DNA of 64,000 nucleotides from Eubacterium sulci ATCC 35585 (GTDB lineage: Bacteria; Bacillota; Clostridia; Peptostreptococcales; Anaerovoracaceae): assembly GCA_001189495.1 (NCBI GenBank), contig CP012068.1:1488001-1552000 (forward strand). The letters run 5' to 3'. Every line of letters starts with the position of its first letter. Position 1 is the stretch's first letter. The translations under genes were made by a program, and so were the position numbers. Shown one piece after another: positions 49,327-64,000 of this stretch. A model generated the notes under the pieces. It saw only the letters and a list, made by a program, of their open reading frames with translations. It made no database searches and had not been told where the DNA came from.

Positions 49327-50427
49327 CTAGGCCCTCTCAAGTTTACCCTGCGCTTGCGCCTCCTCTATAAGAGTTGCAACGCGTTTATTCGATAAACCTA
49401 TTTTATCATTAGCAAGGATTACGCGTCTACATTTTTTGATGGCTTCAAGTGCCTTCTCTAGGCTCTCTTCGCTTATTTCTTCAAAAGCTGGCACCGATAT
49501 TAAGTCGCTCGCTAGGTTCTTTGCTACATAAAAATCCACATCATTTTCGTGTAATATGCCTGTACAGAACGGAATTCCAAGCCTTGTCATCTCCCTAAAA
49601 ACAGGAATGCCCTTGCCATTTCCCGCAATTACAAACACCTCTGGCTCTCCCACTGGCTTAGGAAGCTCGACGCTACCAAATGTAATGTTGTAGGAACCCT
49701 TCTCTATGCTGTAAAGTTCTCTAATGATTTCATCAGTAAATATATCATTAGGTCTTCCGAAGTGCTCAATAGAGTCGCCGTGAACGCATATAACCTTGTC
49801 CGAGATTTTTTGGGCAAGATCTATTTCGTGAAGCGACATCAAAACAGCAATATTCGCCTTCTTTGCCATGGTGTGAAGGATGTTCAAAAGCTCAAGCTTA
49901 TGCTTTACATCAAGAAAGGATGTCGGTTCGTCCAAAACTATAATCTTTGGCTCCTGGCAAATCGCCCTTGCAAGCAAGACTCTCTGCCTCTGTCCATCAC
50001 TTATAGCGCTGAAATCCCTACCAGCAAGTTCTTCCACATGAGCCTTTTTCATCGCCTCAGAAACCTTGACTCTATCCTTTTCATCAAGAACTCCAAGCGA
50101 GTTTGTATACGGATATCTTCCCGTTGCAACAACATCAAAGCATGTTAGGAGCTCTCCCTTAATCTTCTCTGTCAAAACCACAGACATCTGCTGAGCGAGC
50201 GCCTTAAAACTTAGGTTTGCAAGCGAAGCATCTGCGATAAAAACCTCTCCACCAACCATTTCAAGATGCTTGGTTATGCTCTTAAGTATGGTCGACTTTC
50301 CTGCACCGTTTGGTCCTATCATGGTCACGATTTCGCCAAAGTCTACGTCTATATTTATATCCTTAATCAGCGGTTTTTTATTGTATCCGACCGTTAAGTC
50401 CGATGTTCTAAAATAAATGTTTTCCAT
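49327..50427 (-). CDS. FecE/BtuD-type ABC ATPase with a C-terminal extension
   Basis: A 366-aa protein. Residues 1-250 form an ABC ATPase: Walker A GPNGAGKST, signature ISDGQRQRV, Walker B IIVLDEPTS, switch LMSLHEID. Residues about 260-366 are an extra domain (PEVFVIAGNGKGIPVFREMT, GILHENDVDFYVAKNLA) not found in BtuD. It powers the FecCD permease upstream. The riboswitch at the head of the operon points to a corrinoid substrate. Confidence 0.88.
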   Translation of the reverse strand: MENIYFRTSDLTVGYNKKPLIKDINIDVDFGEIVTMIGPNGAGKSTILKSITKHLEMVGGEVFIADASLANLSFKALAQQMSVVLTEKIKGELLTCFDVVATGRYPYTNSLGVLDEKDRVKVSEAMKKAHVEELAGRDFSAISDGQRQRVLLARAICQEPKIIVLDEPTSFLDVKHKLELLNILHTMAKKANIAVLMSLHEIDLAQKISDKVICVHGDSIEHFGRPNDIFTDEIIRELYSIEKGSYNITFGSVELPKPVGEPEVFVIAGNGKGIPVFREMTRLGIPFCTGILHENDVDFYVAKNLASDLISVPAFEEISEESLEKALEAIKKCRRVILANDKIGLSNKRVATLIEEAQAQGKLERA

Positions 50428-50436
50428 TTGATCTCT

Positions 50437-51474
50437 CTAGTACTTAGTACCGTGTCTCTTAACGAGCATTCCAATAACTATAGGTGCACCAAACATTGCT
50501 GTTACAGTGCTTATCGAAAGTTCCACTGGCGCAAATGCCGTTCTTGCAACATAGTCGCAGAACATACAGAATACGCTTCCTGCCATGAATGAGCATGGAA
50601 TTACAAGAATTGGCTTTGCCGTCTTAAGCCCTATTTTTACAACATGAGGAACTGCGATTCCAACAAAGGAAATCGGTCCAACAAAGGCAGTTACGCATCC
50701 AGCCAGAAGGCTTGACATCATGATTAGATACACCCTAAAGCGCTTTACGTTTACGCCCATGCTCTGTGCGTATGATTCGCCCATCTGATACGCTCCAATA
50801 GGCTTTGACATTGCAAATACTATAGCAAAGCAAACTAGCACAATTTTGCTAGAAAGACTAACGTCGCTCCAGCTTACTCCTGAAAAGCTTCCTTGCGACC
50901 AGTTGTGCAAGTTAACTATATCTGAGTCCTGAGCAAAGGTAATCAAAAACTCCGTTATTGCAGAACAAATATAGCTTATCATGATTCCCGCAACGAGAAG
51001 CATAGACATCTGCTTTATCGCTCTTGCCGCAAGAAGTACAAAGCCCATTGCTATCAAAGCACCCACGAAAGCAGCCATGACTATCATCCATGAATTGGTG
51101 TGATGAACGTACTTTAATGCTACAATCATCGCAACTGCAACAAAGAGCTTTGATCCTGAAGATATACCTAAAACATAAGGCCCTGCGATAGGGTTGTTGA
51201 AAAAGGTTTGCATCAGAAATCCCGAAACCGCAAGACCTCCACCGAGTATCGCAGCTGTTATGATTCTAGGCAGTCTAATCTGCCATATGATATTTACATT
51301 TGTTTGATCGCCCTTTTTAGTGAATATTATCTTCATGATTTCCGTAAAGGAAATATCCACAGCGCCTGAATTGATATTCCATACAATCAAAACGAAAAAG
51401 GCAATTATGAGACAGATGAAGACCGCAAGGTATCTCCATCTGTCGCTGATTTTATGATTTTGCTGAAGTGTCAT
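50437..51474 (-). CDS. FecCD/BtuC-type permease
   Basis: A 345-aa permease with about ten membrane helices and family motifs RLPRIITAAILGGGLAVSG (start) and GPISFVGIAVPHVVK. It takes up iron chelates, heme or cobalamin; context favours corrinoids. 10 bp before the ATPase start. Confidence 0.92.
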   Translation of the reverse strand: MTLQQNHKISDRWRYLAVFICLIIAFFVLIVWNINSGAVDISFTEIMKIIFTKKGDQTNVNIIWQIRLPRIITAAILGGGLAVSGFLMQTFFNNPIAGPYVLGISSGSKLFVAVAMIVALKYVHHTNSWMIVMAAFVGALIAMGFVLLAARAIKQMSMLLVAGIMISYICSAITEFLITFAQDSDIVNLHNWSQGSFSGVSWSDVSLSSKIVLVCFAIVFAMSKPIGAYQMGESYAQSMGVNVKRFRVYLIMMSSLLAGCVTAFVGPISFVGIAVPHVVKIGLKTAKPILVIPCSFMAGSVFCMFCDYVARTAFAPVELSISTVTAMFGAPIVIGMLVKRHGTKY

Positions 51475-51485
51475 ATTCTTCCTCT

Positions 51486-52658
51486 TTATTTAAGCTTAAA
51501 CAGGTACTCCATCTTCTTCTGAGCTTCCTTATCACCTGAGAATATTGCGTTCATCTCCTGTATGATGCTTCCCATTTTGTTGGTCTGCTGAAACATGCTT
51601 CTGCTTGTGCACCAAGCATTTCCCTCTTTGACTGCCTTAAAATCCTTGAGAACAGGGCTCTTATCGAGAAGCTCATCTAGCGTATAAATCTGTTCAACGA
51701 TACTGCAGTTATATATTAGGATATCTGCATCCTTTGCTGTTTTGTAAAACTCTTCCATGCTCATGTTTATCGTGCTAAGTTTGCTGTCTTCACCTGTCCC
51801 TAAGTCAGAGAAAGCATATTCGCCCCCTGCAATCTTTATCATCTCTGGGACATATCCATTTGACTTATATGTTACGACATTTCCTCTAGTGTTCACATAA
51901 AAGAATATTACCTTCTTGCCAGTTGATTTTGTATCCTTGAGTTTTTCTATTTTTTCTGCCTGCTCATCAAAGATCTTGTTAGCAAGCTCCTCCTTGTCCA
52001 AAAGCACGCCAAAGAACTTAATCCACTCCGTTCTTCCAAGCGGATGCGACTCATAGCTTGACTTTTCTATCATGGTCTTGATTCCGAGCTCAATAAGTTT
52101 TTCTTTTACCTCAGGATTATGAAGAATCATAGTGTTTTGGATAGCAAGCTCACACTTTCCATTAATCAAAGTCTCATAGTCAGGCGCATTATACTTACCT
52201 GCATTAATCCACTTCTTCTCTTCAATTGCCTTTCTAGCGTTTTCTATGTACCAGTGGTCGGTACCTACGAACTTAATGTTATCTAGTGAATCGAGCGAAT
52301 CAAATAGCGCCATAACCGCAGTAGAAACAAGATATATATTCTTAAGTGGCTGTTTTACAACTATGATGTCCTTATCTAGATTCTTTGGAGCTTCTTTGCC
52401 CTTAGGCACAACGAGAAGCTTATCCCCATCGACAATCTCAAGATAGGCATAACCACCTTCGTACTTATATATAGAAAATTGGTTAGCGTATTTAAGTTTA
52501 ACCTTTTCCTTAAACTTTAGTCCTTCAAAAGCAGGCGCGCCGCTTTCATTTGATCCACTAGAACCTAGGTCTGCAAATATCAGAACCATAAAGCCTATTG
52601 CTATCGCAATAGCTAGTCCAACCACGCCTATTAAAATAGCTTTGTTTTTCTTTGCCAT
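51486..52658 (-). CDS. membrane-anchored substrate-binding protein (BtuF/FhuD fold)
   Basis: A 390-aa periplasmic-binding-fold protein of the PF01497 type (VKQPLKNIYLVSTAVMALFD; GKKVIFFYVNTRG; ADILIYNC). It is tethered by an N-terminal helix (about 8-29) rather than a lipobox. Feeds the FecCD permease. 1 bp downstream of the surface-protein gene. Confidence 0.88.
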   Translation of the reverse strand: MAKKNKAILIGVVGLAIAIAIGFMVLIFADLGSSGSNESGAPAFEGLKFKEKVKLKYANQFSIYKYEGGYAYLEIVDGDKLLVVPKGKEAPKNLDKDIIVVKQPLKNIYLVSTAVMALFDSLDSLDNIKFVGTDHWYIENARKAIEEKKWINAGKYNAPDYETLINGKCELAIQNTMILHNPEVKEKLIELGIKTMIEKSSYESHPLGRTEWIKFFGVLLDKEELANKIFDEQAEKIEKLKDTKSTGKKVIFFYVNTRGNVVTYKSNGYVPEMIKIAGGEYAFSDLGTGEDSKLSTINMSMEEFYKTAKDADILIYNCSIVEQIYTLDELLDKSPVLKDFKAVKEGNAWCTSRSMFQQTNKMGSIIQEMNAIFSGDKEAQKKMEYLFKLK

Positions 52659-52659
52659 A

Positions 52660-53418
52660 TTATTTTTTCTTTCCTATCTTAAGTATCATTAATATACCTA
52701 CTCCTGCTACTCCTAGTGAAACAACGAGGCCTCCGATGTATAAAGGTAGCTTACTATTCTTTGGCTCCGAAGCCTTTGCAGAAGTCTGTTTCTTATCATC
52801 AGCTTTCTTTGCTGCTTTCTTATCAGCCTTCTTTGACTTATCGCTTGCTTTGGAGTTCTTATCGTCCTTAGAATCTTCCTTAGCCTTATCATCCTTCTTA
52901 TCGTCATTCTTCTCGGATGCCTTTGCATCTCCACTAGCACTATTTGATGCTGCACTATTATCACCAGTGCTTCCTCCACCTACCGTTGGAATTGCAGAGT
53001 CATCAAAGTATAATGTATAGTTTAGAGTATGTGGGGTTGACATTGCCGTTGTTTCCATTGTTACATTGACACTTCCGAGGCTTGGAAGTGGTGCACTGTT
53101 AAATATCTGTGCATGTGCCCCATATTGCTGAGGATAAACCGTTCCAGCCGTTGTTGTAAAGTATGAGTACTGGGGAATCCCGTCATCTGAAACTCTTTTA
53201 AACACTATTGTTGCATAAATCTGACCCCCAGATATTGTCACAGAACACGGCGAAACTATAGCATTATGTGACATTCTTCCTTCGCTCAAACTTACTGGAA
53301 CGCTGTATGTTCCATCCTGATATGTCGCCGCAAGCGACGGAATCGCGCTAGCCATTACGAAAACAGCTAATACCGCTGTAACGGCTAGTCTTCTAAATAC
53401 CTTTTTAAAATCTCTCAC
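52660..53418 (-). CDS. NEAT-like surface protein with C-terminal anchor
   Basis: A 252-aa protein: signal peptide (ending about SLAA, residue 31), one beta-rich domain (about 32-150; YQDGTYSVPVSLSEGRMSHN, then FTTTAGTVYPQQYG) resembling NEAT heme-binding domains, a Lys/Asp/Ser-rich linker (about 160-220) and a terminal membrane helix with a GKKK tail. No LPxTG is seen, only KLPLY. It is the first gene after a cobalamin riboswitch, which suggests it captures corrinoids rather than, or as well as, heme. Confidence 0.75.
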   Translation of the reverse strand: MRDFKKVFRRLAVTAVLAVFVMASAIPSLAATYQDGTYSVPVSLSEGRMSHNAIVSPCSVTISGGQIYATIVFKRVSDDGIPQYSYFTTTAGTVYPQQYGAHAQIFNSAPLPSLGSVNVTMETTAMSTPHTLNYTLYFDDSAIPTVGGGSTGDNSAASNSASGDAKASEKNDDKKDDKAKEDSKDDKNSKASDKSKKADKKAAKKADDKKQTSAKASEPKNSKLPLYIGGLVVSLGVAGVGILMILKIGKKK

Positions 53419-53473
53419 CTATTTTCTCCTTTTCTTAAATCGAGCATCGCATATATTATTGCCCTAAATTAAA

Positions 53474-53495
53474 ATAACGGTGCTTCGACCGTTAT
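53474..53495 (-). terminator. terminator hairpin of the cobalamin riboswitch
   Basis: ATAACGGT-CGAAGC-ACCGTTAT on the minus strand, followed by TTTTAATTT. GTCGAAGC (53489-53482) in this hairpin can instead pair with GCUUCGAC (minus strand, 53565-53558), an 8-bp antiterminator. Confidence 0.75.
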
Positions 53496-53580
53496 CTGAT
53501 AAGTGTTTCTTCTCAATTGCATCCAAATATCATGTGGCGCAATATCAAAACCTTACTGTCGAAGCTTTGAATATCTAAAT

Positions 53581-53747
53581 GCAAAACATCTGGTATCCTG
53601 ACTAAGGTTCGTCCTCAAATGCGCCTTCCCATCTAATCATCCTACCTATCAGCAAGCCTTAAATAGTGGCATCTTGCATTCTCGTCCCCCATACAGTAGC
53701 GCAGACTGCTACGGATTCTCACCGTATTCCCAGAAGTTCTGTTTTGC
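53581..53747 (-). ncRNA. cobalamin riboswitch aptamer
   Basis: On the minus strand: P1 arms GCAAAACA (53747-53740) and TGTTTTGC (53588-53581), then GGGAATACGGTGAGAATCC, GCGCTACTGTA (in place of GCCACTG) and near the 3' side AGTCAGGATACC. These are the conserved blocks of the adenosylcobalamin/B12-box class. It heads the NEAT-like/SBP/permease/ATPase operon. Confidence 0.9.
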
Positions 53748-63924: not shown

Positions 63925-64000
63925 ATGTCAGAGTAGGATTTGGCGCGTTAAGTGTCGCAGGATGGGAGTTGTCTGCGAACGAAAGGAATTTATTCCTGCG
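63925..64000 (+). ncRNA. tetrahydrofolate (THF) riboswitch, truncated by window end
   Basis: The sequence has CAGAGTAGGATTTGGCGCG, then GCGTTAAGTGT, GGATGGGAGTTGTC and GAACGAAAGG, closely following the conserved blocks of the class-I THF riboswitch (GGAGAGTAGATGATTCGCG / TTAAGTGT / GAATGGGATGTCG / ACGAAG). The 3' P1 arm and the regulated gene lie beyond 64000; a folate transporter or folate biosynthesis gene is expected. Confidence 0.85.

Follow-up and report, generated by a model that had tools for sequence, protein, structure and literature searches.

A cobalamin riboswitch-controlled NEAT-like surface protein and import operon in Eubacterium sulci, with a possible role in tetrapyrrole precursor salvage

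A riboswitch-controlled import operon

The stretch of DNA analysed here (the window) comprises 64,000 nucleotides of the Eubacterium sulci ATCC 35585 genome and carries, on its minus strand, an operon headed by a cobalamin riboswitch aptamer (RF00174; 53571-53782). The aptamer matches the model over its full length (positions 1-189) with 71.2 bits and E 1.4e-15, above the gathering threshold of 31.5 bits, and thus bears out an earlier sequence-only reading that had placed a cobalamin riboswitch ahead of a NEAT-like gene; the region marked in that reading ended at 53747, inside the aptamer. A cobalamin riboswitch is likewise present at the E. infirmum orthologue. Between the aptamer and the start codon is a hairpin at 53474-53495 (-), AUAACGGU-CGAAGC-ACCGUUAU, then UUUUAAUUU, with 9 bp, a U-rich tail and a fold z of -2.7. 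It is possible that this hairpin is the terminator of the expression platform; it is absent from the list produced by a strict terminator scan, so transcription attenuation is something that we infer. A second aptamer, of the THF riboswitch, lies at 63927-64000 (+) with 50.5 bits and is cut by the window end.

The first gene of the operon (52660-53418, minus strand) is an open reading frame with a GTG start, and its 252-aa product was assigned as a NEAT-like surface protein from its domain family and fold. The protein begins with a signal peptide, followed by a beta domain of about 118 aa (approximately residues 31-148) and a K/D-rich stretch of some 75 residues that links the domain to a C-terminal transmembrane anchor. 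Three genes on the same strand encode a substrate-binding protein (SBP) of the Peripla_BP_2 family with an N-terminal transmembrane anchor (51486-52658; Pfam E 2e-32), a FecCD/BtuC-type permease (50437-51474; Pfam E 2e-80) and an ABC transporter ATPase with a C-terminal extension (49327-50427; Pfam ABC_tran). The solved sequence closest to the SBP is Lmo2184 (E 7e-5), and its resemblance to IsdE is weak. The top NCBIfam matches of the permease and ATPase were BtuC and the corrinoid ABC ATPase PRK09536, both below the curated equivalog cut-offs (213 versus 334 bits and 205 versus 537 bits, respectively), and the transporter therefore falls short of BtuFCD membership by these scores.

All four components that the sequence-only reading had listed, namely a surface NEAT-like protein, a membrane-anchored SBP, a FecCD permease and an ATPase, were found in the operon. 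This is the gene set of Isd-type systems, and the operon is organised like a relay from the cell surface to an ABC importer. The window protein departs from Isd-type sortase anchoring, as it has no LPxTG motif and its anchor is the C-terminal transmembrane helix. Where Isd-type systems are marked by iron/Fur control, the operon has a cobalamin riboswitch.

The NEAT-like domain family and its conserved B12 control

As a single sequence, the window protein had no NEAT match in Pfam, and searches of Pfam, NCBIfam and the PDB returned matches to its low-complexity linker only. Iterative searching gathered one domain family with two subtypes. The window domain (52975-53328, minus strand), aligned with 34 relatives, belongs to type 2 (NL2), which ends in AM[S]xPHxxxY (AMSxPHxxxY in the window domain), and type 1 (NL1) ends in KWYDRxxxF; the two types are related to each other (hhalign 98.4%, E 8e-15). 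No relatives were found in the viral collection. In PDB profile searches, the significant matches of the family were to NEAT structures only, with NL1 matching IsdX2-NEAT5 at E 1e-5 and NL2 matching IsdX1 at E 8e-4. Individual members matched Pfam NEAT at E<=0.1 in 18 of 30 cases for type 1 and 9 of 34 for type 2, and a Roseburia type 2 domain exceeded the Pfam NEAT cut-off (33.6 versus 32.8).

The structure prediction for which the sequence-only reading had called points the same way. An AlphaFold model of the window domain, built from an input of two sequences, was of modest confidence (pLDDT 60, pTM 0.52), and in a VIA fold comparison with this model rows 1-42 were all NEAT structures (Z 6.7-4.2), ahead of the first unrelated structure at 3.7. 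Foldseek with the same model ranked the IsdA NEAT first at a non-significant E of 0.2. In an alignment with IsdX2-NEAT5 that lies in the twilight zone, and in which Tyr elsewhere in the strand is retained, every aligned member of both types has another residue in place of the first heme-ligand Tyr of YxxxY, namely T, E, Q and others in type 2 and K, R and others in type 1. As judged from the alignments and the modelled fold, then, the window domain is NEAT-like but is not predicted to be a canonical heme NEAT. The His of AMSxPH is kept in 31 of the 34 type 2 domains; the E. infirmum orthologue has Tyr at this position, and others have Leu or Val.

The proposed B12 regulation was open to the objection that homologues of the domain elsewhere might lack B12 riboswitches, but this is not what was found. 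Within the family of E. sulci, 29 of 36 domain homologues are preceded, within 8 kb and on the same strand, by a cobalamin riboswitch, and the same holds for 31 of 37 domain matches in an independent, class-wide sample in which the domain occurs in 27 of 393 genomes. In the 15 class genomes that contain just one cobalamin riboswitch, it is without exception positioned 0.1-2 kb upstream of the gene for this domain. The domains that are not preceded by a riboswitch include those at contig edges, those of a second locus type (see below) and three distant matches (G222, G326 and G531). The evidence is strong that the association of riboswitch and domain is not due to chance and that B12 control is conserved across several families of the Clostridia.

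CbiK partners and the tetrapyrrole genes of carrier genomes

The substrate of the cobaltochelatase CbiK is sirohydrochlorin. In several families, CbiK is encoded with the NEAT-like domains in one of two gene orders, RS-CbiK-NL1-NL2-SBP-FecCD-ATPase-(CbiA/CbiP/CbiC/CbiD/CbiF...) or RS-NL2-SBP-FecCD-ATPase-CbiK-NL1-CbiC-CbiD, in which RS is the cobalamin riboswitch. The domains also occur fused, as CbiK-NL1, as NL2-SBP and, in Roseburia sp. 831b, as CbiK-NL1-NL2, the last of these with a 100-bit riboswitch ahead of it and the SBP, permease and ATPase genes after it. Most of the CbiK proteins of these operons have a signal peptide or lipobox, and nearly all of the exported copies have the GHG and GDHA motifs with both catalytic histidines, the equivalents of His145 and His207 of CbiK (PMC7689651). 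The exported CbiK of Roseburia is WP_143524766.1. E. sulci has the system in two loci: the window contains the import half, and a riboswitch-controlled locus at 14-23 kb of the genome has the order RS-CbiK lipoprotein-NL1-CbiD..., in which the CbiK lipoprotein and the NEAT-like gene are at 21-23 kb, with CbiK itself at 21.8-22.7 kb. Two further features were observed beside such genes. On the Roseburia sp. 831b plasmid, a TwoAYGGAY RNA (L126:7049-7218, minus strand; 123.5 bits) occupies part of the interval that separates the cobalamin riboswitch from the CbiK-NEAT-NEAT gene and is encoded on the other strand. In another genome (L060, G102:C5:6483-11270), a cobalamin riboswitch precedes the gene for a 1595-aa secreted protein in which the CbiK domain occurs twice, along with a DUF4430-like segment spotted by eye.

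Genomes that carry the domain are, with few exceptions, genomes that encode the corrin-ring enzyme CbiD. Among 149 genomes of the family, CbiD was found in 28 of 30 carriers and 19 of 119 non-carriers (p 1e-15), and among genomes of at least 90% completeness HemC was missing from 15 of 25 CbiD-containing carriers and 2 of 16 CbiD-containing non-carriers (p 0.003), though the surveyed genomes are related, so the counts are not independent and the p-values overstate independence. The two carriers without CbiD are incomplete assemblies. The survey of early genes covered HemB and HemC, and HemB was found in 15 of the 44 carriers tested. The genome of E. sulci, a closed single contig of 1.74 Mb, has CbiD, HemC, CobA-HemD and SirC and gave no match for HemB. 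E. sulci thus has the gene content of a tetrapyrrole precursor salvager, that is, corrin-ring genes are kept (CbiD) and an early gene is missing (HemB), with HemC present. A mutual exclusion of CbiM and the NEAT-like proteins, considered under a cobalt-import hypothesis, was ruled out by the occurrence of CbiM in many carriers.

A second locus type, in at least seven genomes of several families, places a NEAT-like gene beside genes for an ABC-2 transporter; most of these loci also encode CbiL, a cytosolic CbiK, SirC, HemC or CobA-HemD. In E. sulci this locus (C1:85624-92558) encodes CbiK, an ABC-2 permease and ATPase, a 235-aa NEAT-like protein, CbiL, CobA-HemD, HemC and SirC, and it is conserved in other genomes. 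The content of the second locus ties the NEAT-like proteins once again to sirohydrochlorin metabolism, and it is possible that the ABC-2 pair is a tetrapyrrole exporter. E. sulci also has a riboswitch-free cluster of NEAT surface proteins, SBP, FecCD and ATPase (C1:1142737-1149899), which is likely a heme-type paralogue of the window operon. An alignment of the heme-type NEATs of E. sulci was too gappy for use.

Precursor salvage, alternative ligands and related systems

What, then, does the window operon import? The reading to which we give slightly more credence than doubt, and which is drawn from gene content and sequence, is that the operon and its relatives capture and import a sirohydrochlorin-level precursor that CbiK would load with cobalt outside the cell. 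We favour this reading because CbiK and early cbi genes are constant partners of the system, and because the carriers make the B12 ring while many are unable to make the tetrapyrrole. The window would be the import half of a B12-repressed salvage system for tetrapyrroles at the cell surface. When cobalamin is scarce, the riboswitch would permit transcription of the operon, and the membrane-anchored NEAT-like protein, with its long charged linker, may accept a tetrapyrrole, whether taken directly from the medium or supplied by a partner protein at the cell surface, and pass it to the anchored SBP for import through the FecCD permease and ATPase. The cargo would most likely be sirohydrochlorin with cobalt already inserted by an exported CbiK, which carries or adjoins a second NEAT-like domain and which in E. 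sulci would be the lipoprotein encoded at 21-23 kb. Inside the cell, the corrin-ring enzymes, CbiL and CbiD among them, would complete B12.

Support for precursor salvage at the level of sequence comes from the riboswitch, the operon, the domain family and its NEAT-like fold (in a model of modest confidence), the linkage and fusions with CbiK and cbi genes, the catalytic histidines of CbiK and the missing HemB or HemC. Several findings count against it. The window operon itself is without CbiK, which is encoded at another locus; some carriers have both hemB and hemC (e.g., G083 and G136); and E. sulci, having HemC, CobA-HemD and SirC, could need porphobilinogen only. In addition, BtuC and the corrinoid ATPase are the best-named matches of the transporter, albeit below cut-off, and CbiK-like lipoproteins annotated as heme-binding exist, such as FetB.

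An alternative that we consider rather unlikely, yet worth weighing, is that the NEAT-like domain binds cobinamide or cobamides and hands them over to a BtuF-like protein and a BtuCD-like importer. This is close to the corrinoid-capturing relay of the sequence-only reading, of which the relay-like organisation and the B12 control hold up. The riboswitch and the names of the best transporter matches are consistent with such a role, and the His of AMSxPH could ligate cobalt, although this His is replaced by Tyr in E. infirmum and by Leu or Val elsewhere. Finished corrinoids as the ligand fit less well with the other evidence. The genes to which the domain is linked and fused are those of CbiK and of early cbi steps, not salvage genes; the domain is nearly confined to genomes that contain CbiD, and an exported chelatase would be left unexplained. 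The CbiK and early cbi partners instead favour a precursor.

An extension of the precursor reading, which we put forward as an improbable proposal, is that sirohydrochlorin serves as an extracellular currency. In this scheme, sirohydrochlorin would leave producer cells through the ABC-2 transporter whose genes accompany those of SirC, HemC, CbiK, CbiL and a NEAT-like protein, surface CbiK would load it with cobalt outside the cell, and NEAT-like proteins would return it to the same or neighbouring cells. Sirohydrochlorin would then act in two ways, as a 'cobaltophore' of tetrapyrrole type and as a precursor of B12 shared by cross-feeding. The second locus is present in some genomes that lack HemC (G113, G117 and G046), which weakens the simplest version, in which cells export their own.

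A third possibility, and one that we find quite doubtful, is that the operon is a true NEAT/Isd-like relay for heme that is incidentally under B12 control, in which the surface CbiK would be a lipoprotein that binds or de-chelates heme in the manner of IhtB/FetB. The NEAT-like fold and the resemblance of the SBP to Lmo2184 and, weakly, IsdE agree with heme, and the HmuS de-chelatase is a precedent (PMC12583661). The exported CbiK is close to the heme-annotated FetB, and heme therefore stays a rival. Against it are the absent first Tyr of YxxxY, the cobalamin riboswitch in nearly every lineage, the linkage to cbi genes and the separate riboswitch-free NEAT-SBP-FecCD-ATPase cluster of E. sulci. 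It is very improbable that surface CbiK and NEAT-like proteins collect Co(II) for import as cobalt or a small cobalt chelate, since, although a search of four genomes of the same genus yielded no CbiM, many other carriers have it, and FecCD/Peripla_BP_2 systems and NEAT folds typically bear large chelates and not bare metal.

Several known systems come close to this one. The Isd/Hbp heme relays (IsdX1, IsdX2-NEAT5 and Listeria Hbp2) share the beta fold, the surface location and the SBP, FecCD permease and ATPase, whereas the window family has a cobalamin riboswitch and CbiK/cbi partners, lacks the first heme-ligand Tyr and, in the window protein, is anchored by a membrane helix. In Desulfovibrio, cbiK-cbiL and btuCDF are controlled by B12 elements according to PMC545781, and CbiK is found there beside a BtuCDF-like transporter and cbiL, with structures of a related CbiK available (PDB 2xvx-2xvz). 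Desulfovibrio is Gram-negative, and the consulted passages of that paper make no mention of NEAT-like relay proteins, which are present in window-type systems. FetB/IhtB of Bacteroidota (9b86) is likewise a CbiK-fold lipoprotein that handles a tetrapyrrole, but it is named as heme-binding and has no NEAT-like domain in the alignment. Tetrapyrrole precursor salvagers, a class described by Shelton et al. (PMC6461909), likewise keep corrin-ring genes and lack early tetrapyrrole steps; in the portion of that paper available, dependence on ALA is shown for three species, ALA salvage alone is tested and no dedicated tetrapyrrole importer is named.

In the open-access literature we found no paper that links NEAT domains to cobalamin, CbiK or riboswitches, in keeping with the earlier impression that a NEAT-like domain for B12-regulated capture is undescribed; in the papers searched, heme is the only ligand described for NEAT domains. 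A B12-controlled NEAT-like family that acts with an exported cobaltochelatase would show that the NEAT fold has been put to a new use with a tetrapyrrole other than heme. Such a family would also be a candidate means of uptake in bacteria that have the corrin pathway but not the early steps towards tetrapyrroles, which were defined as a class in 2018, and could explain how B12-precursor-dependent bacteria feed. Cross-feeding of B12 precursors within gut and oral communities could thereby be tested directly.

Other cobalamin riboswitches of the E. sulci genome are located at C1 positions 103079+, 1394128-, 1315236-, 255605+ and 465340+, with weak ones at 346390+ and 376441+. Many of the cobalamin riboswitches in this genome precede genes for large secreted surface proteins of 646-1794 aa, one of which has a DUF4430 domain and GLUG repeats, an arrangement that we term a B12-repressed surface proteome. 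At C1 75478- and 100087-, cobalamin riboswitches are followed by oligopeptide/nickel-type ABC importers (L046 and L047), which may possibly take up cobalt or a metallophore.
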